A stretch of 27,934 nucleotides of DNA from a virus: the IMG/VR virus record IMGVR_UViG_3300009135_000012, positions 1 through 27,934 of that record. The stretch is one strand, 5' to 3'. This document shows positions 41-27,461 of this stretch, one piece after another. The notes below the pieces were generated by a model. The model was not told where the DNA came from. It did not search any database and saw only the letters and a list, made by a program, of their open reading frames with translations. Each line of letters opens with the position of its first letter. Within the stretch, counting starts at the first letter, position 1. The translations under genes were made by a program, and so were the position numbers.

Positions 41-1231
41 ATGAGCTTTAACTATGGTACTGAAGAAGAATTAGGAGGTATAGGAAACAATATAAAGCTG
101 TGGCCTACCTCTGGTAATAGAACAGCTCTTGTTGATGCTGATGCTGTGGCTTATATAGTCGGGTATACATCTGATATGCAAGAGTACTTGAAGATGAAAA
201 GAGATCCAAATTGGGAAGAGTCTGATGTATTTCTTAAGAAGAAAGAACATGCCAGCTTCATGATAAACAAGTGGATTAATCAAGCAGCTTGTGACTCTGC
301 AATAATGTATCTAACAAATAGTAAATCAAACTTCAGGATTGAGATAGCTAAGAGTAAGGTTTATAAAGGTGAGCGAATTGAAGAGAAGCCACCATTCTTC
401 TATGAGATAAAAGATTGGATACTAAACTTTCACAGTGCTATACTCTCAGATAATTGCGAAGCAGATGATGAGATAAGCATAGAAGCTTGGAAGAGACACT
501 TAGCTTTTGAAGGTGAACTCTGGACAGGAGAGCATAAGAAGTTCTCAGACTTCGTAGTAATATCAAATGATAAAGATCTTGGTATCATACCGGGATGGAG
601 ATGCCACCCAAACATTGGTATCTTAGAGTGGGTTGAACCACTTGGTAAGTTAGAACCAAAATGGAAAGAGAAAGAAATTAATGCTTATGAGTATTGGCCT
701 TTATTTAATGGTAAGATAGCTGATCTTGTAGTATGCACTTCGCCTATTATATATGGTGGAGAGATTAAAGTGAAAGTAAAGGGTGAACTTAAAAGCCCTA
801 AAGATAAATGGGAACAAGAGTATGTGTGGTATAAAGGCACAACCAAGCAAGACATTTACTCAAGTGGTAAGAACAAAGGAAAGGGTAAGTTCAAGAGGGT
901 CACTGTAGGTAAGAAGAAGGTTGATAGAATGTCAGCACTTAAAGGAGTTGGTCTTAAGTTCTTCTATAGTCAATTAATCACAGGTGATACTGTAGATAAC
1001 TATGATGGTATTCCCGGTAAAGGTGATGTGTTTGCTTATGAACTTCTTGATAATCTCACATGTGAGACAGAACTATATGATGCTGTTCACCTTGCGTATT
1101 TAGATAAATATAAAACAGTTGAACTTGCTGAAGAGAAGCTACTTGAGACAGGTCAATTGGCTCATATGCAAACAAGTAGAGAGGAATTATGGCAACTACC
1201 AAGGTTAAACGTGCAGACCTTCCCGAAGTAA
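41..1231 (+). CDS. 5'-3' exonuclease, T7 gp6-like (FEN/PIN superfamily)
   Basis: Probable double-strand-specific 5'-3' exonuclease that degrades host DNA, removes RNA primers and supports recombination and packaging. The acidic metal-binding clusters of the FEN-like fold are visible: VDAD at residues 31-34, CEADDE at 139-144, SNDKD at 175-179, and GDTVDNYDGIPGKG at 315-328, which is the helix-three-turn-helix DNA-binding signature with its aspartates. At 396 residues it is clearly longer than T7 gp6 (about 300 aa); the extra length includes a lysine-rich segment at about 225-298 between the acidic core and the GDTVDN motif. The ATG at 41 follows AGGAG (31-35). Its 3' end overlaps the endonuclease VII gene by 43 bp. 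Position ahead of the gp7.3/portal block matches T7 gene 6. Confidence 0.9.
   Translation: MSFNYGTEEELGGIGNNIKLWPTSGNRTALVDADAVAYIVGYTSDMQEYLKMKRDPNWEESDVFLKKKEHASFMINKWINQAACDSAIMYLTNSKSNFRIEIAKSKVYKGERIEEKPPFFYEIKDWILNFHSAILSDNCEADDEISIEAWKRHLAFEGELWTGEHKKFSDFVVISNDKDLGIIPGWRCHPNIGILEWVEPLGKLEPKWKEKEINAYEYWPLFNGKIADLVVCTSPIIYGGEIKVKVKGELKSPKDKWEQEYVWYKGTTKQDIYSSGKNKGKGKFKRVTVGKKKVDRMSALKGVGLKFFYSQLITGDTVDNYDGIPGKGDVFAYELLDNLTCETELYDAVHLAYLDKYKTVELAEEKLLETGQLAHMQTSREELWQLPRLNVQTFPK
1053..1068. promoter_or_regulatory. 16-bp dyad ATCTCACATGTGAGAC (family copy 1)
   Basis: Inside the exonuclease gene. It matches the RTCTMAC-NN-GTKAGAC family seen at 8581, 16249, 25059 and 27446; apart from the first base it is a perfect palindrome. 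Function unknown. Because it is coding sequence, its presence could be incidental, but the match to four other copies is close. Confidence 0.45.
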
Positions 1232-1596: not shown

Positions 1597-2600
1597 TGGC
1601 AGGTAATTTAAGAAAACTATTTACAAATGAAGAGATACACTTTGCTGTTGATAATTCAAGGACAAGAGTAAAGGCAGCAGAGTATCTAACAAGTAAAGAG
1701 AGAGGGACTATTACACCTCAATTACTTGACTATTGGTATAGACAACTTACAGAGGTTACTAAGAAGAATGGTAAACCATATGTAGGTTCAACTGTGCTTG
1801 ACAGGAAGATAAGAAATGAAGAGGTTGTTATAAGAACTCCAAGCCCTCTTGATTATGTTTCAAAGCTAACTAAAGGTGAATTAGATAACAGTAGGATTCT
1901 TACATTCTCCTGCAATCATGCACCTTACCAACACCCTGATGCAATTTTATTCTTGTCAGCTCTTAATGATCATTTCAAATTCACAAGGGTTATTCACTTA
2001 GGGGATGAGGTAGATGCACAGGCATTAAGTTTTTATGACAGTGACCCTAATTTAGACAGCGCTGGCACTGAGTTAGCAAATGCAAGAGTCTGTTTAAAAG
2101 AGCTTGCTAAATTGTTTCCTGTATTAGAAGTTTGTCATTCTAATCACGGATCTCGTATATATAGAAAAGCTAAGAAATGTGGGATACCAGCAGAGTATAT
2201 TAAAAGCTATAGGGAGATACTTTTTCCTAATGGTGGTGGAGATGGTTGGAGTTGGCACAATGAAGTTAGTATTACATTACCTAATGGAGAGCCTGTGTTA
2301 TTCAGGCATACTAAATCTGGTGATATATTAACTACAGCATTTAAAGACAGAGCTAATCAAGTTCAAGGCCACAAGCATACTGAGTTTAAGATTGTAACAG
2401 AATCTTCAGACGCTTGTTTATCATGGGGTATGCATCCTGGTAGCTTACTTGATCGTAAAAGTTCAGCATTTGCCTATGGAGATCTTCATGGAAAGAGACC
2501 TATTATGGGTGCTGGTATTATTATAAACTCACTTCCTATCCTGATGCCAATGCTATTAGACTCTGATGGTAGGTGGATAGGTGAACTTAAAGGAATTTAA
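1596..2600 (+). CDS. Metallophosphoesterase with N-terminal HTH-like region
   Basis: Calcineurin-type phosphoesterase. Metal-binding motifs appear in family order: NHAPYQHP (about 107-114, in place of D-x-H), LGDEVD at 135-140, SNHGSR at 182-187 (the GNH motif), FRHT near 238 and GHKH at 258-261. The residue equivalent to the usual first aspartate is asparagine (N107), as in some phage relatives. The first 55 residues (VKAAEYL...ITPQLLDYWYRQL) look like a helix-turn-helix, so the enzyme may be brought to DNA. Substrate unknown; phage members of this superfamily act on nucleic acid ends or on nucleotides. Start overlaps the stop of the endonuclease VII gene by one base, implying translational coupling. 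It sits in the DNA-metabolism cluster. Confidence 0.75.
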   Translation: MAGNLRKLFTNEEIHFAVDNSRTRVKAAEYLTSKERGTITPQLLDYWYRQLTEVTKKNGKPYVGSTVLDRKIRNEEVVIRTPSPLDYVSKLTKGELDNSRILTFSCNHAPYQHPDAILFLSALNDHFKFTRVIHLGDEVDAQALSFYDSDPNLDSAGTELANARVCLKELAKLFPVLEVCHSNHGSRIYRKAKKCGIPAEYIKSYREILFPNGGGDGWSWHNEVSITLPNGEPVLFRHTKSGDILTTAFKDRANQVQGHKHTEFKIVTESSDACLSWGMHPGSLLDRKSSAFAYGDLHGKRPIMGAGIIINSLPILMPMLLDSDGRWIGELKGI

Positions 2601-2602
2601 TT

Positions 2603-3085
2603 ATGAACACAGCATTAAAATGTACATGTGGTGATTCAACTGAAATACCTACTGGTCATAAGATTATGTGTCACAAGTGCAGAAAAGTTTACTCATTAGA
2701 TTATCTAATTAATGATAATAAACCTATAGTCGTAGAGCCAGCGCCTTTTAAAAGTAAATGCTGGACTTGCAGTAAAGCAACTAATTGTGAAGATGCTAAT
2801 GGTGATACAATAGATTGTGCTGTATATAGTAATAATAAACTTGTAGCTGAAGATACCATAGTAATGGAGGAAGTTATAGTAAATAGCAGAGACTTTAACA
2901 TCGGTAATTCTGATTATGCAAAGCATAAGATACAACCTTGGGATATCTGGCTTGAGTATAAGCTTAACCCTTGGGATGCTGATATTGTTAAAAGAGTATT
3001 AAGAACTAAAGAAGGTGAGTCACGTGTTCTTGATTATGAAAAGATTATCCATATATGTCAAGAGCGTATTAGACAACTTAAATAA
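2603..3085 (+). CDS. Zinc-ribbon protein with DUF3310-like C-terminus
   Basis: Two cysteine clusters lie in the N-terminal half: C7/C9 with C23/C26, and C53/C56 with C62/C72, typical of small zinc ribbons or knuckles. The C-terminal part (about 102-160) contains IQPWDIWLEYKLNPWDADIVKRVLR...VLDYEKIIHICQERI. This resembles the DUF3310 domain seen in many phage proteins, including T7 gp1.7-type nucleotide kinases (pattern IQPxDF...NVIKYVxR...DLxKAxHYL). A role in nucleotide metabolism is therefore possible, but the domain call is from pattern memory and the zinc part points equally to nucleic-acid binding. It starts 2 bp after the phosphoesterase stop and precedes DNA ligase. Confidence 0.6.
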   Translation: MNTALKCTCGDSTEIPTGHKIMCHKCRKVYSLDYLINDNKPIVVEPAPFKSKCWTCSKATNCEDANGDTIDCAVYSNNKLVAEDTIVMEEVIVNSRDFNIGNSDYAKHKIQPWDIWLEYKLNPWDADIVKRVLRTKEGESRVLDYEKIIHICQERIRQLK

Positions 3086-3105
3086 TAAACAGGAGATAAC
3101 CTAAA

Positions 3106-4071
3106 ATGAATGTATTTCAATTCCTTGGACTCAAAGAAAATCATAGGGACAAGAAGAAAGTAGTACAACTTTGTAAGCACTCTGATGAAGTAACAGAGAG
3201 TAGAAAGTCTTATCCTAAAGTTGGACAGGTTAAGAAAGATGGAGTGTACTCTATCACAGTTGTCAAACCTAATAACGAAGTTGAGATCTTCAGTAGAACT
3301 GGTATGAAGTTTACAAACACAGATATATTGACAGATCAGATTAAACGATCTAACTTTAGGGTAGGTGTTTATATTGCAGAGCTTTGCTGTGATGCTTGCT
3401 ACCTTGAGGTTTTATCTGGTATTGTAAATCCTAATAGGAATAAAGTGTTAAGTGAAGACAAAGAGAATGTAAAAGCTGTTATGTATTTAGCATTCCATGA
3501 CTTCTTACCTATTGAAGAGTTTATTGGTGGGAAATCATATATTGGTTATGCAGATAGACATTATCATCTCTCACAAATACTACCAATAAACATGAACTTA
3601 CTTGATGCATACGAGATCAAAGATCAAGAGCAAGAAGATAAATTCTTTGATGATGTAGTGGCTGATGGGGAAGAGGGTATAGTACTTAAGAATCCTGAAG
3701 CTGATTGGGTTGCTGGTCACAAGGGTTGGAGAACCATGAAGAGAGTTCGTGGTTGGAGTGGTGATCTTCTTTGTATCAGAGCTGAAGAAGGTGTTGGTAA
3801 GATGAAGGGTAAGATTGGTAACCTATTCTTCAAGTGGAAAGATGGTAAGGAAGTTAAATGCCCTCTTGGTAAAGGTTACACCCATGAAGATGCAAAAGGT
3901 ATGTGGCAGACATATAAGCATGTTGAAGCTGGCTTGCATGATACATCTATTAATGGAACACCAATAGGTCAGATCTTCGAAGTGTACGCTCTTCAAGAAT
4001 CAAGCAAGGGTAAGCTAAGACTACCAAAAGTTGGTGAACTCAGAATAGATAAGACGGAGGCTGATGTATAA
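3106..4071 (+). CDS. ATP-dependent DNA ligase
   Basis: Joins nicks during phage replication by forming a ligase-AMP intermediate. Nucleotidyltransferase motifs are present in order: motif I K43-K-D-G46 with the AMP-accepting lysine, SRTG at 63-66, YIAEL at about 89-93, EGIVLK at 190-195 (motif IV) and MKRVR at 211-215 (motif V). The remaining 100 residues would form the OB-fold. Length (321 aa) fits small phage ligases (T7 gp1.3 is about 359 aa). The start is preceded by CAGGAGATAACC. In T7 the ligase is an early gene; here it lies directly ahead of the structural block, so the order differs. Its stop overlaps the next start (TAATG). Confidence 0.9.
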   Translation: MNVFQFLGLKENHRDKKKVVQLCKHSDEVTESRKSYPKVGQVKKDGVYSITVVKPNNEVEIFSRTGMKFTNTDILTDQIKRSNFRVGVYIAELCCDACYLEVLSGIVNPNRNKVLSEDKENVKAVMYLAFHDFLPIEEFIGGKSYIGYADRHYHLSQILPINMNLLDAYEIKDQEQEDKFFDDVVADGEEGIVLKNPEADWVAGHKGWRTMKRVRGWSGDLLCIRAEEGVGKMKGKIGNLFFKWKDGKEVKCPLGKGYTHEDAKGMWQTYKHVEAGLHDTSINGTPIGQIFEVYALQESSKGKLRLPKVGELRIDKTEADV

Positions 4072-4301
4072 TGAAGAAAGCAAAAGAATACAAATCACCA
4101 TCAGATCCTAAGCTACCACCAGCATTATCAGGTAAGAAGCAAGGCTTGTATTTTCCACCTGATATTGAAAAGTTCTTGCTGAAGATTACAAGTCCAGAAA
4201 GTCTTAATCATAGGGCTTCTTTAGCTGATTTCATAAGAAACAATGTACTTGAAGATATAAGGAATAGGATAAAACATGCTCAAGAAAAAGGTTCTTATTA
4301 G
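4071..4301 (+). CDS. Small protein of unknown function
   Basis: A 76-residue protein, basic and proline-rich at the start (KSPSDPKLPPALSGKKQ), followed by a short extended segment (GLYFPP) and two predicted helices (DIEKFLLKI and SLADFIRNNVLEDIRNRIK). The strand-helix-helix layout is reminiscent of ribbon-helix-helix regulators, but no diagnostic residue is seen. I do not recognise the family. It is coupled on both sides: its start overlaps the ligase stop by one base, and its last 26 bp overlap the acetyltransferase gene. Confidence 0.65.
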   Translation: MKKAKEYKSPSDPKLPPALSGKKQGLYFPPDIEKFLLKITSPESLNHRASLADFIRNNVLEDIRNRIKHAQEKGSY

Positions 4302-4746
4302 AGTTGCCATTGGTCTTGATATACTACAGCTTGTTAATATAGGTAAAGAATATCACGAAGAGGCTGTAGCTTGGAGTTGCTTTGAATATAACTCTGGACA
4401 AACAGCACTCTCTTTAAACTATGCAATAGAGGACAGAGATCAACAGATATTCTTAGCAATAGCTGACAATAAGATTGTTGGGTTTATGTGGAGCGCTCTT
4501 GCTTCTTATGTATTCTCTAAAGATAAGGTTGCAAAAGATTTATACCTGTATGTCAAGCCAGCTTACAGGGGTGAAAATATAGGTAAAAGATTAACAGATG
4601 AGTTTGAAAAGTGGGCTAAGGCTTGCAATGCAACTGCTATAATTACTGGTGCTAATTCAGGCATTAGTGATGCTGCTGATAAGCTATATACAAACTCTAA
4701 TTATTTACCATTTGGCTATAACTATTTAAAATTAATTAAGGAGTAA
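4276..4746 (+). CDS. GNAT-family N-acetyltransferase
   Basis: The GNAT fold is recognisable. A central strand pair (QQIFLAIADNKIVGFMWSAL, about 56-75) is followed by the beta-4 strand KDLYLYVKPAYRGENIGKRL (87-106), which carries the acetyl-CoA pyrophosphate-binding loop R98-G-x-x-I-G-K. The helix DEFEKWAKACNA and a final strand (YNYLKLIKE) complete the domain. It transfers an acetyl group from acetyl-CoA to an amine; the substrate (host protein, phage protein or small molecule) cannot be told. Such genes occur between replication and structural blocks of several podoviruses. The start at 4276 lies inside the previous gene with AGGAT upstream. Confidence 0.75.
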   Translation: MLKKKVLIRVAIGLDILQLVNIGKEYHEEAVAWSCFEYNSGQTALSLNYAIEDRDQQIFLAIADNKIVGFMWSALASYVFSKDKVAKDLYLYVKPAYRGENIGKRLTDEFEKWAKACNATAIITGANSGISDAADKLYTNSNYLPFGYNYLKLIKE

Positions 4747-4749
4747 CTT

Positions 4750-4992
4750 ATGGGACTTGATCCAGTATCATTAGGTATAGGAGGTAGTCTACTTGCAAAG
4801 AAGCATTTGACACCAAAGCTACCAGATATACCTAATCCAGCAAAAAGACCTGAAAGAGAAGAAGGAGTAAATCCTGAAGACATTCAATTAGGTGGTGTTG
4901 ATGAAGACATTGACTCTAAGAAATCAGGTAAGAGATCACTATTAAAACCTAAAGGCACTGTAACACCAACTGCATCTGGTCTAAACATATAA
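4750..4992 (+). CDS. T7 gp7.3-like tail assembly/virion protein
   Basis: An 80-residue, proline- and charge-rich protein with a glycine/leucine-rich start (SLGIGGSLLAKK) and the C-terminal signature GKRSLLKP...TASGLNI. T7 gp7.3 likewise ends in KSLSVARSSGGGINI, and short podoviral proteins with a terminal GLNI/GINI occur just ahead of the portal. In T7 this protein is in the tail and is needed for assembly or adsorption. The call rests on the C-terminal motif and on position directly before the portal gene; the rest shows no clear similarity. Its start is preceded by TAAGGAG. Confidence 0.6.
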   Translation: MGLDPVSLGIGGSLLAKKHLTPKLPDIPNPAKRPEREEGVNPEDIQLGGVDEDIDSKKSGKRSLLKPKGTVTPTASGLNI

Positions 4993-5001
4993 GGAGTTAT
5001 C

Positions 5002-6564
5002 ATGGAATCCTTATTATCACAGGTAAGTAGAGGTAAAGGCTCTAAGGTTGATATGGCTGGAAGGTATGCACACAAGTCATCAGATAGAAGTGGATACTTA
5101 GATAGGGCCAGAGAGTATAGTAGGATGACCTTACCTCAAACAATCACAGATCAGTTAGGTCAAAACAGAGGTGATGCAGCAAACCAACATGGATATAGTG
5201 GGATAGGTGCTGAGTTAGTAAATCATTTATCTAATAAGATTACAGTTAACATGTTTCCAATAGGTAGGAGTTTCTATAAACTTACCTTTGGTGAGCGTCT
5301 TGAGGCGTTGATTGAGGCAGAAAATAAAGATCCATTAGAGTTAGCTGAACTCCTTGTAAGTGCAGAAGACCAAACAACTACATATCAAACAAGAATAGCT
5401 GCAAGAGTTGCATATATTAATAGTGTTAAAAATCTACTTATAACTGGAAATGTCTTAGTTCATCTACCTAAAGTTGGTGATCTACAAGCGATACCTCTTG
5501 ATAGATACGTAGTGTCAAGAAACTTAAGTGGATTCATGACTGAGCTTATTATACTTGAACAAAGTAAATTCTCTATGTTATCAGATGATGCACAGATGAT
5601 TGTTAAAGCTCAAAGAGGATCTCTTGCACCTAAGAGTGATGATGTAATAGATCTCTATACTTGGGTTTATTATGTTAAGAAAAAAGGGTATGCTATTGTA
5701 CAGTCGGTAGACTCAATACAATTAACAGATGTACAGTATGTTGAAGAAGAACAACTACCTTGGTTAGCTTTGAGGTGGAACTCTGCTTATGGTGAAGATT
5801 ATGGTAGAGGTTTAGTTGAAGACCATTCTGGTGATTTCTATGTTATTGAGTTCTTAACAGAAGCTATTGCTAAAGGTATGGCTTTAATGGCTGATATTAA
5901 ATATCTTATCAAGCCGGGGTCTGTGACAGACATAGATGAGATTGCTACAGCTCCTACAGGTGAATGGATCTTTGGACAACTTGACGACATTGGAGTATTA
6001 CAGCTTGAAAAGTATGCTGATTTTACACCTATCGTAGAAGTACTTAAAGACTATGAGAGGCGAGTAGGAAGAGCATTCTTGATGAACTCTGCTATGCGAA
6101 GGGATGCTGAGAGAGTTACAACAGTAGAGCTTAGAATAGATGCACAAGAGCTTGAAGTAAGCATGGGTGGTAATTACTCAGGGTTAGGTCAGAAGTGGTT
6201 AACACCTATGGCTAAACTATACTTACATAGGATTGGGTTTCCATTCCCCGGTGGTGTAGTACCTACAATAGTTTCAGGTTTAGAGTCATTTGGTCTTACT
6301 GGTGAATTAGAAAAACTATATCAGTGGTCAGAGATAATGCAACTACCTAACACATGGCCTGAAGCTCTGCAATCAGATATTAAATTTGATGATTATGCAA
6401 GATTAGCAGCAGCTAATTTAAGTATGAAATTACCATTCTTAATGACAAAAGAAGAGAAGATAGCAAAGCAGCAAGCACAGCAAGCACAGCAGGATGGTGA
6501 TCTTGTTAAAGAAACAGTGGCAAACACAGCACCTAAAGTGATAGAACAAAGTATGAAGGAGTAA
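5002..6564 (+). CDS. Portal (head-tail connector) protein, T7 gp8-like
   Basis: Dodecameric ring at the capsid vertex through which DNA is packaged and ejected. The 520-residue length is close to T7 gp8 (536 aa). Conserved podoviral segments include RAREYSRMTLPQ near the start, GIGAELVNHLSNKITVNMFP at about 70-92, the ITGNVLVHLP strand near 148, ERRVGRAFLMNSAMRRDAERVTTVELRI near 353-380, and QELEVSMGGNYSGLGQKWLTPM after it. The last 40 residues are glutamine- and lysine-rich (QQAQQAQQDG), a common portal tail. A clear AAGGAG precedes the ATG. It is followed by the scaffold gene 2 bp downstream, as in T7. Confidence 0.93.
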   Translation: MESLLSQVSRGKGSKVDMAGRYAHKSSDRSGYLDRAREYSRMTLPQTITDQLGQNRGDAANQHGYSGIGAELVNHLSNKITVNMFPIGRSFYKLTFGERLEALIEAENKDPLELAELLVSAEDQTTTYQTRIAARVAYINSVKNLLITGNVLVHLPKVGDLQAIPLDRYVVSRNLSGFMTELIILEQSKFSMLSDDAQMIVKAQRGSLAPKSDDVIDLYTWVYYVKKKGYAIVQSVDSIQLTDVQYVEEEQLPWLALRWNSAYGEDYGRGLVEDHSGDFYVIEFLTEAIAKGMALMADIKYLIKPGSVTDIDEIATAPTGEWIFGQLDDIGVLQLEKYADFTPIVEVLKDYERRVGRAFLMNSAMRRDAERVTTVELRIDAQELEVSMGGNYSGLGQKWLTPMAKLYLHRIGFPFPGGVVPTIVSGLESFGLTGELEKLYQWSEIMQLPNTWPEALQSDIKFDDYARLAAANLSMKLPFLMTKEEKIAKQQAQQAQQDGDLVKETVANTAPKVIEQSMKE

Positions 6565-6566
6565 GA

Positions 6567-7391
6567 ATGGCAGATCCAGTAGAGGGTGTAGCTCCAAGTG
6601 AGCCAGTTGTTCCAGTGGAACCAGTAGCACCTACAGAGCAAGTACCAACAGAGCCTATTGTAACACCAGAAGTAGTACCAGAAACACCAGCAGTTACACC
6701 AGATGAAAATGCATATACACCTGTTGAAGAAGCTGTAAGTCTCAGTGATATTAAGATTGATGGTCATGATGTTGAGATTAATATCCCGGCTGATATCCTT
6801 AATTTCGTAGGAGAGAAAGGACTCGATGCAGCAGAGATAGCTAAAGAGATGTATTCTGAAGGTGGTGTGACAGAGGAAACAAGAGAGAAGCTTAATGAAG
6901 CTTTTGGTAAGTGGCAAGTAGATGCTTATTTAGATGGGATAGCTGCAAAGAATCAGTTAACAATGTCTGAGTATAAGAGTGGTGTTGAAGCATCTCAGAA
7001 AGCAGAAACAGAAGCTTGGGAGAGCACATTAGAGATAATGGGTGGCGAAGATAGATGGGATGACCTGTCATCGTTTGCAGAGGAAAGCTTATCTGAAGTT
7101 GACTTTGAAGCTTTTAATTCTATTATGGAAAATGGATCTTTGATGGTACAACAAGTACTTATTACTGATCTTTATAGTAAGTTCACTGAAGCTGGCGCTC
7201 CTGTAGCTCCACAAATACCAGAGCTTGAGCAAGGTGAGACAGGTGGTGATGCTGGTAGTGTTGGTGAAAAACCCCTATCTGTTGCTGAGTATAAAGAGTT
7301 ATTTACATCAGGTGAATATAGTAAAGCTACCAAAGAAGAGCAAAGAAGATTTGATCAATTAAGAGAACTTGGTCAGAGTAAAGGAATATAG
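6567..7391 (+). CDS. Capsid assembly scaffolding protein, T7 gp9-like
   Basis: Acidic scaffolding protein that guides procapsid assembly and is then lost. Residues 5-55 form a low-complexity repeat rich in P, V, E and T. A folded part follows (about 56-195: VSLSDIKIDGHDVEINIPADILNFVGEKGLDAAEIAKEMYSEGGVTEE...AFGKWQVDAYLDGI), typical of podoviral scaffolds. The C-terminal end (VAEYKELFTSGEYSKATKEEQRRFDQLRELGQ) resembles the capsid-contacting tail helix of this family. At 274 residues it is slightly shorter than T7 gp9 (307). AAGGAG lies 6 bp ahead of the ATG, overlapping the portal stop region. Confidence 0.88.
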   Translation: MADPVEGVAPSEPVVPVEPVAPTEQVPTEPIVTPEVVPETPAVTPDENAYTPVEEAVSLSDIKIDGHDVEINIPADILNFVGEKGLDAAEIAKEMYSEGGVTEETREKLNEAFGKWQVDAYLDGIAAKNQLTMSEYKSGVEASQKAETEAWESTLEIMGGEDRWDDLSSFAEESLSEVDFEAFNSIMENGSLMVQQVLITDLYSKFTEAGAPVAPQIPELEQGETGGDAGSVGEKPLSVAEYKELFTSGEYSKATKEEQRRFDQLRELGQSKGI

Positions 7392-7411
7392 TCAAGTAAT
7401 ACAGCAACTTA

Positions 7412-7433
7412 AATAAGGTTGCAGCATAAGATA
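7412..7433 (+). promoter_or_regulatory. Candidate phage-RNA-polymerase promoter upstream of the capsid gene
   Basis: In the 70-bp gap between scaffold and capsid lies a 22-bp element whose 18-bp core is AGGTTGCAGCATAAGATA (7416-7433). The same 22 bp recurs at 24135-24156, just after terL, with one mismatch. Both copies stand at the head of a transcription unit in the same orientation. T7-type polymerases use promoters of about 23 bp, and T7 has its strongest promoter (phi10) at this position. No polymerase gene is in the window, so the role is inferred from placement and repetition. Confidence 0.55.
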
Positions 7434-7461
7434 GTAATTTTAACTTAAAAGGAGTAATTTA

Positions 7462-8574
7462 ATGTCAGGATCAAATTCGAACAACCTTTCAAATCCAGCA
7501 GTACCTAATAACACAGAAGTCCCTACGCTACTTATTGAGAAGTTCAATGGGCGTGTCCATGAAGAGTATGGAAAGAAAGATAACATACTCGGTGATTTCT
7601 ATGTTGATGAGGTTGTTGGTACTAATATGGTATCCAATAAAGCTATTGGTGATACTACTCTTCAGGTACTTAGTGCAGGTACTAAACCAGAAGCAACACC
7701 TGTTGAATACAACAAGAATGCATTTATCGTTGATACTGTAGTTCTTGGTAGAAATGCTACATTCCAGTTGCATGATGTACAGAATGATTTCGACAACAAG
7801 AACAAAATTGCCAAGAATCAGATAGTTAAGATGAATGAACTTGAAGATCAAATGGCATTACAGCAGCTTGCAGCAGGAGCTTTTACTGGTGGTGTTTTTA
7901 ATCCAACAGCAAACACTATCACTGGTGGTGTTAGTAGAGTTTCAGGTCAGGGTGTTGCAATTAAAGTTGATCTTATTGACACCTTTGCACAGGCACAAGA
8001 TCCTTATATGCTTGTATCTGCTATTGAAATTGCACTAATGGGCCTTATTATCCAGAAAGTACCAATTGGATCTATTACAATTTATGTACCTATTAATGAG
8101 TTCAGCTTGCTTCAGGATTACGGCTTTATTGCTATTGCTCAGGGTGGTTCTAATGAAATCCAAGCTGGTGGTATGACAAACCTTATGGGTACTCTCAAGA
8201 GCTACGGAGTTCGTATTAAAGGGAGTGTTCAGTACTCTCTTATGAAAATGAATCCTCATGATGGTGCAGATCACAGTCTTCTTTCAAATGCAGACAATGG
8301 CAACAGGTATGATGTTACAGCAGATATGCAAGCCACACATGCTATTATCGCTGGTTCTGATGGTCTTCTTGCAGGTCGTTCTATTAACCTGTCAACTGAT
8401 ATCTACTTTGATAAAGATTCAAAATCATACTTCATCGACTCTTGGAACTCTCAAGGTTGTATTTATGACAGATATGATAACTTGGCAATTGTAGGTAGTA
8501 ATGCAGTTGCAGAGAACACAGAAGTTAGCAAGAAAGCTAAAGGTAAGTCTACAGCGACTAAGACGTATGCTTAA
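7462..8574 (+). CDS. Major capsid protein, T7 gp10-like
   Basis: Main shell protein with the HK97-type fold expected for T7-like capsids. At 370 residues it is close to T7 gp10A (345). The N-arm and E-loop region contains KFNGRVHEEYGKKDNILGDFYVDEVVGTNMVSNKAIGDTTLQVLSAGTKP. The central part carries FIVDTVVLGRNATFQLHDVQNDFDNKNKIAKNQIVKMNELEDQMALQQL, a very typical podoviral capsid segment, and the P-domain ends near DIYFDKDSKSYFIDSWNSQGCIYDRYDNLAIV. AAGGAG precedes the ATG by 6 bp. It is flanked by a candidate promoter and a strong terminator, giving high isolated expression. I saw no extended -1 frame like that of T7 gp10B. Confidence 0.95.
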   Translation: MSGSNSNNLSNPAVPNNTEVPTLLIEKFNGRVHEEYGKKDNILGDFYVDEVVGTNMVSNKAIGDTTLQVLSAGTKPEATPVEYNKNAFIVDTVVLGRNATFQLHDVQNDFDNKNKIAKNQIVKMNELEDQMALQQLAAGAFTGGVFNPTANTITGGVSRVSGQGVAIKVDLIDTFAQAQDPYMLVSAIEIALMGLIIQKVPIGSITIYVPINEFSLLQDYGFIAIAQGGSNEIQAGGMTNLMGTLKSYGVRIKGSVQYSLMKMNPHDGADHSLLSNADNGNRYDVTADMQATHAIIAGSDGLLAGRSINLSTDIYFDKDSKSYFIDSWNSQGCIYDRYDNLAIVGSNAVAENTEVSKKAKGKSTATKTYA

Positions 8575-8580
8575 TAGTTA

Positions 8581-8596
8581 GTCTAACACGTTAGAC
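8581..8596. promoter_or_regulatory. 16-bp dyad GTCTAACACGTTAGAC (family copy 2)
   Basis: It lies 6 bp after the capsid stop and 12 bp before the terminator stem. Seven of seven arm positions are complementary around a 2-bp centre. It belongs to the RTCTMAC-NN-GTKAGAC family also found at 1053, 16249, 25059 and 27446. A hairpin with a four-base loop is possible, but in copies 25059 and 27446 the two half-sites carry different variants, which breaks RNA pairing yet keeps both half-sites. This favours a dimer-binding DNA site. Confidence 0.6.
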
Positions 8597-8608
8597 AAGT
8601 AATATAAT

Positions 8609-8642
8609 AGCCCTCCTGCCAATTAGGTGGGAGGGCTTTTTT
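8609..8642 (+). terminator. Intrinsic terminator after the capsid gene
   Basis: AGCCCTCC (8609-8616) pairs with GGAGGGCT (8630-8637), and the stem continues inward through two G-T wobbles and two C-G pairs to a five-base AATTA loop. Six T residues (8637-8642) follow. This is the position of the T-phi terminator in T7, downstream of gene 10. It overlaps a spurious upstream GTG start of the gp11-like gene. Confidence 0.9.
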
Positions 8643-8656
8643 GCATAGGAGGGTAT

Positions 8657-9304
8657 ATGCTTAATAATGAAGTGGATGCTGTTAATGTATGCCTTGCTGG
8701 TATTGGGCTTGAACCTGTTACAGAGTCAGAGATAGATTCTGATTTAGATGCTGGTACTGCATTAACTAAAGTGAGGTTAGTGACAGAAAGGATATTATCA
8801 AAAGGTCTTTGGTTTAACAAAGAATATCATTGGAATTTAACACCAGACACAGTAACAGGTTATATTAATGTACCATCAGGAGCTATATCAGTTATTCCTT
8901 CAGGTGAATCATATTATAGAGATCTTAGCCTAAGACAGAATAAGATGTATGATATGGTTAATCACACATATGACTTAAGAGATTTAGTTAACTCAGATGG
9001 TGCTATTGAATTTATGATCATAATGAGACTTACTTTTGAGGACATACCCTTCACTGCAAGAAACTACATAACATACATAGCCCGTAGAGAGTGGGCGCAA
9101 GATTCAGAAGTTGATGAACGAAGGTGGAGATTTCAGAAAAGTGATGAGATGGATGCTAACATAAGTATGCTAAGAGAAGATGCAAGAGGTAAGAAGAGAA
9201 ACAGCATCACAGATAATGGTGTGATACAGAGCTTCTTAGCAAGAGTTGGTGGGCCTAATAGTCACTCAAGCCAAGTTGGTATTTATCCTAAAAGGAATGA
9301 GTAA
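8657..9304 (+). CDS. Tail tubular protein A (gatekeeper/adaptor), T7 gp11-like
   Basis: Forms the ring joining portal and nozzle. The 215-residue protein begins MLNNEVDAVNVCLAGIGLEPV, the usual start of this family (EvdAVNxxLxxIGExPV). It has the later conserved segments RLVTERILSKGLWFNKEYHW (about 45-64) and MRLTFEDIPFTARNYITYIARREW. T7 gp11 is 196 aa. I chose the ATG at 8657 because GGAGGG (8648-8653) precedes it at good spacing; the in-frame GTG at 8627 lies inside the terminator stem and would have to be read through it. Confidence 0.92.
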   Translation: MLNNEVDAVNVCLAGIGLEPVTESEIDSDLDAGTALTKVRLVTERILSKGLWFNKEYHWNLTPDTVTGYINVPSGAISVIPSGESYYRDLSLRQNKMYDMVNHTYDLRDLVNSDGAIEFMIIMRLTFEDIPFTARNYITYIARREWAQDSEVDERRWRFQKSDEMDANISMLREDARGKKRNSITDNGVIQSFLARVGGPNSHSSQVGIYPKRNE

Positions 9305-9315
9305 GGAGTTTTAAA

Positions 9316-11709
9316 ATGACATTTAGCACAGGTAATCAAGGGAATCCAATAAACGGAGTATCGCAACAACCTGCTAAAAATAGATTTCTTGGTCAGTGTA
9401 CAGCATCAGATAACTTTAAACCAGATGTTGTACAAGGTTTAATAACAAGACAAGGCACTGACACACAAGGTAAGCTTATTGGAGCAAGTGTTGATCCTGA
9501 TGTTAAGTGGCACTATTATGATAGGGGTGATGGAGAGCAATATCACATATCAATAGAAGATGATGGTACTGTTAAAGCATGGAGTCCTGATGGAACAATA
9601 CACAGTATAGGCTCAACAGCAGCAGCAATAGCCTATTTAGTATGTGATAATCCAAGAGAAGAGATAAAACCACTTACAATAGGTGATTATACATTCCTTG
9701 TAAACACAACTAAAACAGTTCTTGCTAATGCAACAGATACACCGTCACAACTAAGTGAAGGTATTATTAATGTAAAGTTCATGGACTATGGACAAACCAT
9801 TAATGTATATATAGACTCAGTACTTGCTGCAACATATGTAGGGCCACAAGGGTTAGGCCCGTCTGAATCACCTTTAGTTGCTGTTGACTATGTAGCTAAT
9901 CAATTATATATAAGCCTAAGTGCATGGAATTTAGCAAACGGTAATAATTACACACTTACTCTTGATTCAAATACTGTTTATATTAATAGATTTAGTGGCC
10001 TACCTTTTACTTTAAGTGTAGAAGATGATGCAGCAGGAGCTAATACAGTTGCCGTTAAAGATAAGATAAAAAGTACAACAGATTTACCTAAAAGAGCACC
10101 AGAGGGGTTCTTAATAGAAATAGACCCTCCTGGAGCTACCTTTGCTGGTAATGATAATTACTGGTTAAAAGCTGAAAATAATGATACAGACCACATAACA
10201 TGGAGGGAATCAATTTCTCCTGATATATCACTTGGTCTTGATGTTGATACAATGCCTGTTGTACTTGTTAGAGATTCTGTTCAACCAACTCAATCTTTAT
10301 TTACACTAAGAGTAGGTGAGTGGGAAGATAGAACTGTTGGAGATGACGCAAGTAATCCTCAACCAGTGTTTGTAGATAATAAGATACAGAATATAGGATT
10401 AATGCAAAACAGAATAATATTTACATCAGGTGAAGAGGTGTTAGCATCTAAATCAACAGGTGGTGGCTTCTTTGATTTCTTTAGAACTACTTCACAATTA
10501 ACACTGTCAACAGACCCTTTATCTTTCTATGCAGATGTACCTAAAGTTAATTTCTTAGAGTCAATGGCATCTTTTGATGGTAGTATGGTATTCTTTAGTA
10601 AGAATGGACAGTTTATATTAAGAGGTGATAAAGCTTTAACAAGTGCCTCTGTTCTTGAAACATCTACCTCATTTGAATCAAAGCTTACAGTAGAACCAGT
10701 TGCATCAGGTGATGGTATTTTCTTCACCTTTAATTATGGTAGGTTTACTGGCATAAGAGAGTTCTTTACAGATTCAATAACTGACACTAAGAAAGCAAGA
10801 CCAGTCACAGAACATGTTAATAAATATGTTGCTGGATCTCCAACAATAATGGCTACATCTACAAACCTTAATATGTTAGCAATAAAAACAGATAATGCTG
10901 ATAATATACTTTATGTTTATGATTGGTTATGGAGAGGTGACACTAAGGTACAAAGCGCTTGGGGTAGATATATATTTGCAGCTACCGATAATATTCTTAA
11001 TATTGTCTTCAATGATGAGCTTATGATAATTGTAATAGAGAGAGAAGATGGAAGTGTTTATTCAGAGAAGATGAATATAGGCTCACCTGATGATGATGGA
11101 TTAGATTTCTCTGTAAGAGCTGACAGGAAGATAGAAGACGATATGGAGTTGTTCAGTGAGAGGTATAGAGTGTTAGATCCGTTTCCCGGATTAGATATAG
11201 AAGAGATTCTTTGTATTAGATCAACAGGTGCATATGAAGAGGATATTGGTGTTGCAATAGATATTTATAGAGAAGGTGGCTATTTATACACAGATGAAGA
11301 TCTCACAGACACAGGAGATCCTGTTGCTGTTGTTATAGGACAGAGGTATTTATGTTCATACACACCTACTAATCCAATACCACATGATGAGGGTGGACAG
11401 GCACTTAATCTTGATAAGTTTAAAGTTAAATCATTTTATCTTAATTATGATTCATCTGGTGATGTAGTGGCAAGGGTTGAAAAGAACTCTGGTTCAATAA
11501 GAACAAAGAACTTAACACCAAGGGTTTTAGGTAATCCTAATAACCTAATTGGATTTGCTCCTATATCAACAGGCACTTACAAAATGACCATAAAGCAAAG
11601 ACCAGATAAATACACCTTAACATATGAAACTTATAGTCACATACCATTAATAATAAGAGATTTTGATTATAATGGTGATCTAAATAGGCGTGGGAGGCGT
11701 ATACAATAA
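9316..11709 (+). CDS. Tail tubular protein B (nozzle), T7 gp12-like
   Basis: Hexameric nozzle to which tail fibres attach. At 797 residues it is nearly the length of T7 gp12 (794). Family hallmarks are the opening GNQGNPINGVSQQPAKNRFLGQCTASDNFKPDVVQGLITRQGT (typical: l.GVSQQ...R..gQc....N..pdvv.Gl..R.gT), TFLVNTTKTV near 132, the mid-protein VGEWEDRTVGDDASNPQP...QNRIIFTSGEEVLASKSTGGGFFDFFRTT, and the late block SHIPLIIRDFDYNGDLNRRGRRIQ. GGAG precedes the start. The last stop base overlaps the gp14-like start. Confidence 0.93.
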   Translation: MTFSTGNQGNPINGVSQQPAKNRFLGQCTASDNFKPDVVQGLITRQGTDTQGKLIGASVDPDVKWHYYDRGDGEQYHISIEDDGTVKAWSPDGTIHSIGSTAAAIAYLVCDNPREEIKPLTIGDYTFLVNTTKTVLANATDTPSQLSEGIINVKFMDYGQTINVYIDSVLAATYVGPQGLGPSESPLVAVDYVANQLYISLSAWNLANGNNYTLTLDSNTVYINRFSGLPFTLSVEDDAAGANTVAVKDKIKSTTDLPKRAPEGFLIEIDPPGATFAGNDNYWLKAENNDTDHITWRESISPDISLGLDVDTMPVVLVRDSVQPTQSLFTLRVGEWEDRTVGDDASNPQPVFVDNKIQNIGLMQNRIIFTSGEEVLASKSTGGGFFDFFRTTSQLTLSTDPLSFYADVPKVNFLESMASFDGSMVFFSKNGQFILRGDKALTSASVLETSTSFESKLTVEPVASGDGIFFTFNYGRFTGIREFFTDSITDTKKARPVTEHVNKYVAGSPTIMATSTNLNMLAIKTDNADNILYVYDWLWRGDTKVQSAWGRYIFAATDNILNIVFNDELMIIVIEREDGSVYSEKMNIGSPDDDGLDFSVRADRKIEDDMELFSERYRVLDPFPGLDIEEILCIRSTGAYEEDIGVAIDIYREGGYLYTDEDLTDTGDPVAVVIGQRYLCSYTPTNPIPHDEGGQALNLDKFKVKSFYLNYDSSGDVVARVEKNSGSIRTKNLTPRVLGNPNNLIGFAPISTGTYKMTIKQRPDKYTLTYETYSHIPLIIRDFDYNGDLNRRGRRIQ

Positions 11710-12305
11710 TGGCAGTACAAGCAATAATGGCTGGTGGAATGGCTGTTGCTCAAGGTTACTCAGCCTACACACAAGCTAAAGCAGACGAAGAAGCACAAGA
11801 TGCATATAATAAACAATTAACAGAAGATGCGATAAGGCAATATGGTGAACTTGATGAAGTAGAGGATGATATTATATATGAAAGTCATGCTCAGTCATTA
11901 CAAGCTCAGAAGCAATTATTACTTGAGAGAAGTGATTTATTTCTAAGAGCTGCTCATACTGGTACTTATGGTGGAACTGTTGACTTAGCTCTTAAAGATA
12001 TAGGTCGTGGGTTCTCAAGTAGAATGAGTGAGATTACAGACAATAAGGATCGTAATTTAGAGTCTGTAGTTAAGCAAGCTGAAGAGATTCACGCTGGAAC
12101 TAAGAGAAATTATGATACTACACTGAGAAGACCTGCTTGGTTCTCTGGTGCTATGGGTGCTTTACAAGGTGCTCAGGCTGGTTCATCATTAGCTGGTTCT
12201 CTAAGTGGTGTAAAGGGTTCTGGAAGAGCTGTGCCTAAGAGAAAGACAGATATAAATATAAAAACAGATGCATCTCAAATAAATACTAATAGACAATACG
12301 CATAA
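11709..12305 (+). CDS. Internal virion protein, T7 gp14-like
   Basis: First of the three ejection (core) proteins in order; in T7 gp14 lodges in the outer membrane during DNA entry. The length of 198 aa matches T7 gp14 (196). It has an N-terminal Ala/Gly-rich hydrophobic stretch (AIMAGGMAVAQGYSAY) and then a long charged helical region (EEAQDAYNKQ...ILYESHAQSLQAQKQLL type). The typical GTYGGTVDLALKDIGRGFSSRMSEI segment and a Gly/Ala-rich hydrophobic part near 142-170 (AMGALQGAQAGSSLAGSLSG) follow. Position between gp12- and gp15-like genes supports the call. Start overlaps the previous stop (TAATG). Confidence 0.85.
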   Translation: MAVQAIMAGGMAVAQGYSAYTQAKADEEAQDAYNKQLTEDAIRQYGELDEVEDDIIYESHAQSLQAQKQLLLERSDLFLRAAHTGTYGGTVDLALKDIGRGFSSRMSEITDNKDRNLESVVKQAEEIHAGTKRNYDTTLRRPAWFSGAMGALQGAQAGSSLAGSLSGVKGSGRAVPKRKTDINIKTDASQINTNRQYA

Positions 12306-15458: not shown

Positions 15459-18400
15459 ATGGGTAGCTACTACGATTCAATAAAAGGTGCAGGGCCACCT
15501 ACAGCTTGGGACATTGAAAATCAAGCAAAGTCTAATAAAGTTAAACCACCTTTAAGCGCTGTTGTTCGTAATGCTGCACAAGATGTAATGTCTCCTTATG
15601 CTATCAGTCGTATATTTGAAAGAGACTCAAGCCAGTATGATAAGATGGTGGATTCTGATTGGAAGGTAGACGATAAAGTACAAGCTGATCTTGATAGGAA
15701 TTATGATACTAAAGACACAAAATATATCATGGAGGCAAGGTCTGAGCCTGAGTTTATAGCTCGCAAGAGATATGTACAAGAAGATATAACACGAAAGAAT
15801 ATAATAGCTTCTGCTGGTGGTGCTGGTATTATTGCTTCAGTTGGTATGTCTTTATTAGACCCTGTTGCAATAGCTGCTGGTGCTTTCAGTGGAGGTGTAT
15901 TACAGGGAGCAAAGCTAACAGGGCTTACAAGAATAGCTACTATTGGTGCTGCTTCTGGTATTGAGAATGCTGCTATTGAAGCTGTACTCTCTGAAAGTAA
16001 TACTCAATCTTCACCTTATGATATTATACTTGCTTTGGGTACTGGTGCTGTATTAGGTGCTGGTATAGGTGCTATTACTAAAGGGCCAAAGCTTGAAGCA
16101 ACTATTGATCATGCTGCTAATACTATCACAGAAGAAGCAGCTAATGTTACAGCTTTTGACTTAGCAAAGAAAGCTCAAAGACTACAACCAAGAGTTGATA
16201 CAATAGATACAAGAGCTGTTACTAAAGCTGTTGACGATCATATAGAAAGTCTCACACGTGAGACAGAAGGTTTCCTAACATCAGGTCAATTAGGTCAGGT
16301 TGATAAGCAAATAGCAAAGGCTACTAAAGAGCTTGATGAAACAGATGTTCTACTTAGAGAGGCACAAGGTTCTGAGACAGTACAAAGAGAAGCCTTCCTA
16401 AAGAAAGAGACAGAATTTGCTGAGACTGTTGAGCCTAAAGTTAAAGAAATAGAAGCTACTTATAGTAAAAGAATCAAAGAAGCTGAAGATAATATAAAGA
16501 AGATAGAAAGAAAACCTGATACTCAGAAGAGAGAAGGTAAATTATTTGTAGCTGAAGATAAGCTGAGTAGACTTAAGAAAGCTCAAGCTGATGAGATAAA
16601 AGCTGTAAGATCTAAAGCTAAAGCTTCTGTTAGTAAAGTCAAGAGTAAATTTAAATCATCTCTTGATCAAAGAATTGGTGTAGTAAAAGCTCAAAGGAAA
16701 GTAATTACTAACAGAATTACTGAACTTGAAGGAATTAAGAGTAAAGCTGAAATAGCTAAGAAATCTAAAACAGATCTCAATAAATTCAATAACTTATCAG
16801 ATGAAGCTAAAGCTACAGCGCTCTTTGGGAAAGGTAAGATTCCTCTTAAACAAGTAGAACTTAAGAGACAAATTAATGCTGGTAAAGAGATATCACCTAA
16901 ACCTGATGTGGAGCCTAAAGTTTCTGAAGGAACAGTTGGTGCTGAGTTTGCTGGATTTAAACCTTATGTAATCAAAGCTGAAGACAACATAGATCGCTTT
17001 GCACATGATGGTGCTAATATGCCAGAAGATCTAAGAGGGAAGAGGATACTACCTAAATTCACTAAGCACATACAGAGTATTCAGACAAGATTATCTAATT
17101 CTGATAATATGGCTATTCGTGGATTTGCTTATCATTTATTTGAAGCACCTCAAGGAGGGGCAGCAGCAGAGATTACAGCAGCAGCAAGAGTACATAACAA
17201 TAATACAATAATACGTTCAGTAATGCGAAACAGACTGAATGAAGGACTTGAAGAGTGGGGTGCAAACCAAGGCATATCTTTATATAAAACGTTGATGAGA
17301 AGAGAGAATTTTAACTCTTATCATAAGAAGGTTATACTTGAAGTTAAGTATCCCGGTACATTCACTGACACTGGTATTGTAAAAGGTGCTGAAGGTGTCA
17401 GAGCACAATTGAAAGAAGCTGGTAGAATCAGGAAAGATGCTGGTGAGGCTGGCTTTGATAATATAGATCTTGATGCAAATTATGCACCTACAGTTATTAA
17501 TGAAGGTCTTGTTAAATCTGCAACACTTAAACATGGTGAAGCTAAAGTTATATCAGTATTATCTAAATCTTATCAGGAAGGTAAACACCTGTTAAAGCCA
17601 GAACTTGCAGATAGAATAGCTGAAGGGTATGTAAAGAGATCTCTTAATAATACATTGACAATGAAAGACGTGATAGCTGAGTCAACCAATAAAGATGTTG
17701 ATTCTATGATTAAAGGCTTACAAGAAGCCGGTGTTGATGAAGATGTTATACAAGATTATCTTGACACAACAATGCAGAAAGAGATCAATTCACAACTATC
17801 AGATAGAGCTAAGTTCTCTTTGTTTCCTGATCTTAGGACTGAGTTCAATGGACTTAAGATGGTTGATCTTATTGAGAGTGACCTACCAAGATTACTTGAG
17901 AGTTATACAAGGTCTGCTTCAGGTGGCGCTGCATTCGCTAAATTAGGTTTCAGTACAAGAGGTCAGGTTATGGGATTCTTAACTGATCTTGAAAAACAAT
18001 CAAACAACTTAGGATTAAATCAGACTAACATAGCTGAAGAGATTCAAGTATTAAGAGATGGAGTTGACTTACTTTATGGACGTTCTGTTAATAAAGATGC
18101 TCACAGTCCGTTTGTTAGGAACTTAGGTAGGCTTAGGGATCTCACCTCATTTTTAAGATTACAGTCTGTTGGTATAGCTTCTATTCCAGAGGGTGCAAGG
18201 ATAACAGCAAACAGAGGTTTAAAGAATGTTATTGAAAACGTACCCGATCTTGGAATAGGTATCAAAGGAACAAAGAATCTGAGAGAGGGTGGTAAATATA
18301 GTGGCCAATTCAAGAGAACAGATCTCAGAGAGCTTGAAGAGGTTATGGGTTATGTAGGTGAAGATCATGTATTATATCCTAATGGACTAAGAGTTGACAA

Positions 18401-24134: not shown

Positions 24135-24156
24135 AATTAGGTTGCAGCATAAGATA
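24135..24156 (+). promoter_or_regulatory. Candidate phage-RNA-polymerase promoter after terL
   Basis: Second copy of the 22-bp element at 7412-7433; the 18-bp core AGGTTGCAGCATAAGATA (24139-24156) is identical. It begins 8 bp after the terL stop and would drive the accessory genes from 24346 on. Placement at the head of a 218-bp gene-free leader, with the same orientation as the capsid-gene copy, supports a promoter role. Confidence 0.55.
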
Positions 24157-24786: not shown

Positions 24787-25059
24787 ATGCTAAGAGAATA
24801 TACAAACAAGCCTACTACAAGATTAGCTTGTCAGATATCAGAGAAGGGTAAGATTGAAAAGATAAAGACAGGAGTATACTCATACTCTGCACAGGGTAGT
24901 GGAGCATCTAAAATCTACCTTGAGTTTACTATTGGTGCAAAACAGAAAGCACCTGTTGCTGGTGATTATATCATACAGTTATCTAAAGATGATGTTTATT
25001 GTTCACCTAAAGATGCATTTGAAGAAGCTTGGGTTCCTAAAGGTTTCTATGTAATGTAG
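24787..25059 (+). CDS. Small phage protein of unknown function
   Basis: A 90-residue protein. The C-terminal half (APVAGDYIIQLSKDDVYCSPKDAFEEAWVPKGFYVM) follows a pattern common in short phage proteins (P-x-x-GDWIV...G..YPC.P..FE..YE), usually annotated only as hypothetical. No catalytic or metal-binding motif. AAGGAG precedes the ATG. The stop codon abuts copy 4 of the 16-bp dyad. Confidence 0.7.
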   Translation: MLREYTNKPTTRLACQISEKGKIEKIKTGVYSYSAQGSGASKIYLEFTIGAKQKAPVAGDYIIQLSKDDVYCSPKDAFEEAWVPKGFYVM

Positions 25060-25074
25060 TCTAACGTGTGAGAC
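25059..25074. promoter_or_regulatory. 16-bp dyad GTCTAACGTGTGAGAC (family copy 4)
   Basis: It begins at the last base of the upstream stop codon and fills much of the 36-bp gap ahead of the P-loop gene. The left half is GTCTAAC and the right half GTGAGAC: both are valid family half-sites, but they differ at one position, so an RNA stem would carry an A-G mismatch. Placement just upstream of a gene is compatible with an operator. Confidence 0.6.
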
Positions 25075-27445: not shown

Positions 27446-27461
27446 GTCTAACATGTGAGAC
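27446..27461. promoter_or_regulatory. 16-bp dyad GTCTAACATGTGAGAC (family copy 5)
   Basis: Intergenic copy about 370 bp ahead of the early gene. Half-sites GTCTAAC and GTGAGAC around AT. Further single half-sites follow: GTCTCA at 27478 and 27498, TGAGAC at 27521 and CGAGAC at 27536, making a cluster that looks like a compound operator. Confidence 0.6.

Follow-up and report, generated by a model that had tools for sequence, protein, structure and literature searches.

Operator-like palindromes recur across SP6-group phages and are predicted targets of the gp7 family

Genomic context of the palindromes

The window, i.e., the whole stretch of DNA analyzed here (IMGVR_UViG_3300009135_000012, 27,934 bases), holds the exonuclease-to-terminase part and the right end of an SP6-group autographivirus. 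Its content is that of the late region of an SP6-group phage, and the fragment stops short of its own gp7 gene. The major capsid gene was one anchor for this placement. A nucleotide search of the window against phages gave zero matches. A capsid search of IMG/VR returned one relative, and the terminase was then used instead to gather relatives. The features relevant here are the following:

7462..8574, plus strand: major capsid gene (phrog_267)
1053..1068, no strand: operator-like palindrome ATCTCACATGTGAGAC, within the exonuclease gene
8581..8596, no strand: operator-like palindrome GTCTAACACGTTAGAC, between the capsid and tail tubular A genes, 7 bp past the capsid gene and ahead of an intrinsic terminator
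16249..16264, no strand: operator-like palindrome GTCTCACACGTGAGAC, within the internal virion protein (endolysin-domain) gene
25059..25074, no strand: operator-like palindrome GTCTAACGTGTGAGAC, flanked by ORF 24787-25059 and the P-loop/thymidylate kinase-like gene
27446..27461, no strand: operator-like palindrome GTCTAACATGTGAGAC, in the long non-coding stretch preceding the first early ORF
8610..8643, plus strand: intrinsic terminator-like hairpin with a T-run, read from the sequence; it lies directly behind the site at 8581 and is separate from it (context only)

A sequence-only reading of this DNA had reported a dyad, RTCTMAC-NN-GTKAGAC, at 1053, 8581, 16249, 25059 and 27446. All five copies were found, with 0 mismatches to RTCTMACNNGTKAGAC. 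That reading held chance recurrence to be very unlikely, and 2000 dinucleotide-preserving shuffles of the window gave a mean count of 0.001 and a maximum of 1, so chance is not a reasonable explanation of five copies. The half-sites stood as described. The center can be described more closely, as the two central bases were always purine-pyrimidine; the half-site is thus 8 bp long (GTCYMACR) and the whole site is a 16-bp palindrome. Three copies had been called intergenic (after the capsid gene, before the P-loop gene and ahead of the early region), in agreement with the ORF map. Mixed halves, GTCTAAC against GTGAGAC, had been noted for two copies and were seen at 25059 and 27446. The copy at 1053 starts with an A and so departs at one base from the consensus of the family in relatives, and the copy at 25059 overlaps ORF 24787-25059 at the last base of that ORF's stop codon.

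Two other repeats were observed in the window. AATWAGGTTGCAGCATAAGATA occurs twice, before the capsid gene (7412-7433) and after the terminase gene (24135-24156). It is a candidate promoter for the RNA polymerase (RNAP) of the window phage; SP6 has promoters at both places. A second palindrome, GAGCGCTC, occurs five times (4491, 24239, 26953, 27672 and 27700; 0.02 expected), with four of the copies in the non-coding right-end region.

Distribution across SP6-group phages

The scan of related phages that had been proposed as a check found SP6-like phage genomes to hold many copies of the motif, with 4–11 sites per complete genome across the SP6 group. Exact copies numbered nine in SP6, eight in K1-5, seven in Era103 and ten in Vibrio phage BD1, and the IMG/VR relatives also carried 7–10 copies of the 16-bp palindrome. 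A reversed control pattern had 0 matches in all 50 records scanned.

The site differs between lineages. In Colwellvirinae, the half-site is unchanged and one central base is added, resulting in a 3-bp spacer and a 17-bp form. Such copies were counted in phiA318 (9), Achelous (10) and HJG (8), and R25D and Ulitu01 likewise carry this half-site with the 3-bp spacer. Vc1 has nine GTTTCAC sites with the Colwellvirinae spacing, while ECBP5 and PP99 have GTCTAGT sites. The two central bases are purine-pyrimidine, and the 17-bp form has purine-S-pyrimidine there; this indicates two 8-bp half-sites, either abutting or one base apart. For CB5A, GTTCGAG (three exact copies, one near) was taken as the site, though a TGTTATA repeat is commoner there.

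T7 and phiKMV have no such palindrome family; the top palindrome of T7, CTCACTA, was read as the T7 promoter. The record G035 was set aside, as it has a related spaced pattern several times, none with a purine-pyrimidine center. Two further arrangements were seen. ECBP5 (L222) and PP99 (L223) carry 3–4 copies of a second palindrome, based on GTACTA/TACTAG, in addition to their GTCTAGT sites. In the divergent contig L017, each of seven sites (2340 to 12214) pairs a GTCTATT half with a GTCTACT half, and the halves are never identical.

These computations support the palindromes as a real, selected, group-wide family. The initial observation was right, and it is larger than stated, since the family reaches SP6 itself. 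The open literature searched yielded no account of the palindromes, although the 2004 SP6 and K1-5 genome papers (Scholl, Dobbins) might mention them.

Placement of the sites

Conservation of position, which had been raised as a question for the relatives, holds at the level of gene slots. Shared by the lineages are slots ahead of the first early gene, inside the RNAP gene, between RNAP and primase, between primase and DNA polymerase (DNAP), between SSB and the gp20 family, after the capsid and after the terminase. These slots are kept while the site sequence changes among lineages. A left-end site, exact or with one mismatch, was found in 11 of 11 annotated relatives. The RNAP/primase interval carries one or two sites in all 11 as well, and in SP6 and K1-5 these adjoin tandem promoters.

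The post-capsid slot is occupied in the window, phiA318, Achelous and Ulitu01. In the nearest capsid relative (L005), a diverged palindrome, ATCTCACAATTGAGAT, lies directly after the capsid gene and ahead of a terminator, i.e., in the same slot as in the window. Besides the window, Achelous, Ulitu01, ECBP5 and PP99 have sites in the post-terminase region. Era103, BD1, phiA318, Vc1 and Achelous have a site within the RNAP gene, 0.54–0.57 of the way along it; in Achelous it falls at other codons. At one homologous RNAP position, the codons match the motif of the respective lineage: GTCTCACGTGTTAGAC in Era103, GTCTCACGCTGTGAGAC in phiA318 and GTTTCACGCTGTGAAAC in Vc1. K1-5 has no RNAP-internal copy, and not every slot is filled in each phage, which points to site turnover.

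Across five genomes, 30 of 43 site centers were non-coding, versus 4 expected. Three SP6, three K1-5 and two Era103 sites end 0–15 bp upstream of a phage promoter, and none lies within 20 bp downstream of a phage promoter in these three phages. No site adjoins the main late promoters (capsid, terminase), which is unexpected for a pure promoter operator. Left-end sites did not overlap the sigma-70 promoters predicted there by promoter scans. Overall, the sites are front-loaded toward early and middle genes, as would fit a regulator made early.

The gp7 family as predicted binder

The gene for SP6 gp7 (K1-5 gp6; phrog_4571) is an early one and lies directly ahead of the phage RNAP gene. The function of the homologue gp6 has been listed as unidentified (PMC4099482). 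The family is present in 18 of 18 annotated group genomes with the palindrome family, and tblastn did not find it in T7-type records, among the matches listed. Because the same phages carry gp7 and the sites, and because gp7 has a predicted helix-turn-helix (HTH), it was considered as the binder.

Comparison of recognition helices with half-sites revealed a regular relation. In 24 phages, the gp7 helix column at SP6 residue 66, an H in SP6 itself, is K if base 5 of the half-site is C and H, N, R or E otherwise, with no exception. No other column of gp7, and none of RNAP or primase, separates the base-5 classes in these phages. SSB and DNAP have one separating column each, both hypervariable, giving with gp7 three in all columns tested. 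On the RNAP tree, the residue and base 5 change jointly, about six times, and five of five independent pairs agree (sign test p = 0.0625, with five pairs only).

The residue-base rule was fixed in writing before another seven phages were retrieved. All seven carried a palindrome family with base 5 as predicted, four of them being close kin of phages already used (MR4 of ECBP5, R25D of L236, Ulitu01 of Achelous and PM116 of L235). In WAG25P1, another of the seven, base 3 was off the prediction (GTATAGT). Half-site bases 6-7 showed a suggestive relation to column R86. This column was dropped as their reader and kept as a lead only, since control proteins score too.

Site sequence and the DNA-reading helix of gp7 thus vary together, which makes gp7 very probably the binder, an identification drawing on sequence covariation, phage distribution and modeled fold. 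That a gp7-family protein binds the palindromes is a prediction we make with high confidence. For the window, we infer binding by its own gp7, encoded outside the fragment; the helix of that protein would be expected to have K, like those of other phages whose half-sites mix A and C.

A different candidate binder, the SP6 gp18 family (phrog_862), was rejected: by inspection, it has the acidic tail and terminal aromatic residue of T7 gp2.5-type SSBs. SP6 gp18 (L214, 13216-14019), listed without function, looks like the SP6-group counterpart of T7 gp2.5.

Predicted structure of gp7

In the model of SP6 gp7, the HTH is part of a helical N-terminal domain, which a disordered linker joins to a long helix; a small C-terminal domain follows. 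The covarying residue 66 sits in the modeled recognition helix, and the HTH helix starts at about residue 60 in most family members. In VIA-align, the N-terminal domain matched Spo0J-parS (Z 9.7), Spo0J, Noc, ParB and KorB-operator (Z 8–9.7), including 107 of 115 residues of the KorB DNA-binding domain on its operator (1r71, Z 8.2). The C-terminal domain matched J-domains with up to Z 7.3. A second model, of the relative G023 from another lineage, gave the same two assignments (Z 7.9 and 9.1). Over both models, Spo0J, Noc, ParB, KorB or SopB were matched at Z 4.6–9.7, a range in which (Z about 5–10) helical domains may match through common arrangement alone; the Rubisco factor Raf1 and helical bundles matched too.

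Other searches added little. Foldseek of the gp7 model gave no significant match (all E > 0.7), a profile search against PDB sequences no credible one, and Pfam and NCBIfam weak matches only, with DUF3102 most frequent (best E 0.0019). From the models, the N-terminal domain is probably a ParB/Noc/KorB-type HTH, and the predicted fold further includes a coiled coil and the J-like domain. At the sequence level, the family appears to have no CTPase (ParB/Srx) domain with its GERRxxA motif: GER[RK] was found in 0 of 27 members, and for five members, Pfam gave no match to ParB with E up to 10. The HPD motif, by which J-domains stimulate Hsp70, was also found in 0 of 27. As modeled, the C-terminal 55 residues of SP6 gp7 (L230, 2435-3316) would be a J-domain-like fold without HPD in a putative phage DNA-binding protein.

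Proposed role and alternatives

We propose that the five palindromes are double-stranded DNA operators, bound by homodimers of the gp7-family protein that the phage itself encodes. Each monomer would read one 8-bp half-site via a ParB/KorB-type HTH, the coiled coil would hold the dimer together, and the J-like C-terminal domain may contact a partner. Made early, gp7 would occupy the unit boundaries (left end, post-RNAP, primase-DNAP, SSB-gp20, post-capsid and post-terminase), block or tune read-through by host and phage polymerases, and shield promoters starting just downstream. Placement at unit boundaries and upstream of some promoters suggests transcription control or insulation. As a whole, this reading, operators for a gp7 homodimer serving genome-wide transcriptional control or insulation, is the one we favor, with some reserve. 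Transcriptional control as the main purpose of binding may or may not hold, with the case about evenly balanced.

More speculatively, the SP6 supergroup may share a CTP-independent ParB-like system of lytic phages, in which an early protein with a J-like domain, at 4–11 syntenic palindromes, organizes transcription and perhaps genome layout. In it, site and reader would co-evolve via repeated specificity switches.

The alternative that survives best is genome organization of the ParB kind. Here, as the phage genome enters, replicates or is packaged, gp7 dimers at several sites would bridge or compact it or tether it to some host structure, with secondary effects on transcription. The fold matches are partition proteins, the Vc1 half-site GTTTCAC resembles parS, and the sites are spread over coding and non-coding DNA. 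However, CTP-driven sliding is not expected of a protein without a CTPase domain, a ParA-like partner was not noticed in the annotation tables, and the sites, which are front-loaded, fall on gene boundaries and promoters. We regard this alternative as rather unlikely.

Control of replication is less probable still. The primary origin of T7 is the RNAP/primase region, and the sites found there in every annotated relative, beside the tandem promoters of SP6 and K1-5, could mark an origin at which gp7 helps or restrains initiation. Most sites lie elsewhere, though, including in late genes and at the left end.

It is very improbable that the sites act as RNA hairpins, be it in termination, processing or packaging. 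Perfect palindromes can fold, and one site stands ahead of a terminator, but hetero-half sites break the plus-strand stem in 9 of 13 genomes, the loop would have 2–3 nt only, and an Rfam search was without match. The sequence-only reading had preferred a dimeric protein to an RNA hairpin, and this preference is supported by the stem-breaking sites, the residue-to-base covariation with an HTH protein and the prediction on later phages. It had also staked its proposal on enrichment over shuffled sequence and on conserved positions in relatives, and both were found. Least credible of all is a host transcription factor as the binder: the motif is palindromic and operator-like, but the half-sites track the recognition helix of the phage protein rather than the host, the sites of SP6, with GTTGGAC halves, and of K1-5, with GTGAGAC halves, differ though both are enterobacterial phages, and GTCTCAC is common to phages of Vibrio, Pseudomonas, Aeromonas and enterobacteria. 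The prediction that the sites are operators for a DNA-binding protein is strongly supported.

SP6 is a textbook phage with a polymerase in use everywhere, and its gp7 has been without an assigned function. Our proposal gives gp7 a predicted DNA-binding role together with its targets. It also suggests that a T7-type genome may carry a multi-operator layer besides promoters and terminators. The family further offers naturally occurring specificity variants of a single HTH, each with its matching sites, which should be useful for studying the co-evolution of operator and reader.

Comparison with known systems

The modeled C-terminal fold of gp7 aligns with J-domains, as in DnaJ co-chaperones (Z 7.3 and 9.1 in the two models), but the HPD motif is missing. 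Promoters of SP6-group RNAPs are, like the palindromes, short, conserved, multi-copy and specific to a phage protein; their sequences are separate and adjoin only some of the palindromes. The stoperators of mycobacteriophage L5 are many sites over the genome for one phage DNA-binding protein; their sequence is asymmetric and their role is in lysogeny. The SP6 group likewise has many sites over the genome, with one putative phage reader, but as palindromes in lytic phages.

In plasmid RK2, the single protein KorB controls many operators scattered over the replicon. Its DNA-binding domain on operator DNA aligns with the gp7 model, whereas gp7 is without the CTPase domain and the operator sequence differs.

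ParB/parS and Noc/NBS likewise have palindromic targets at several places of a replicon; the HTH dimer that reads them apparently shares the fold modeled for gp7. gp7 differs from these proteins in missing the N-terminal CTPase domain and in having a J-like domain at its C-terminus; it is also the product of an early gene of lytic phages in whose annotation no ParA partner was noticed. In the ParB/Noc fold, a few interface residues switch specificity (PMC7383237), which is a close parallel to the covariation of gp7 with its sites.
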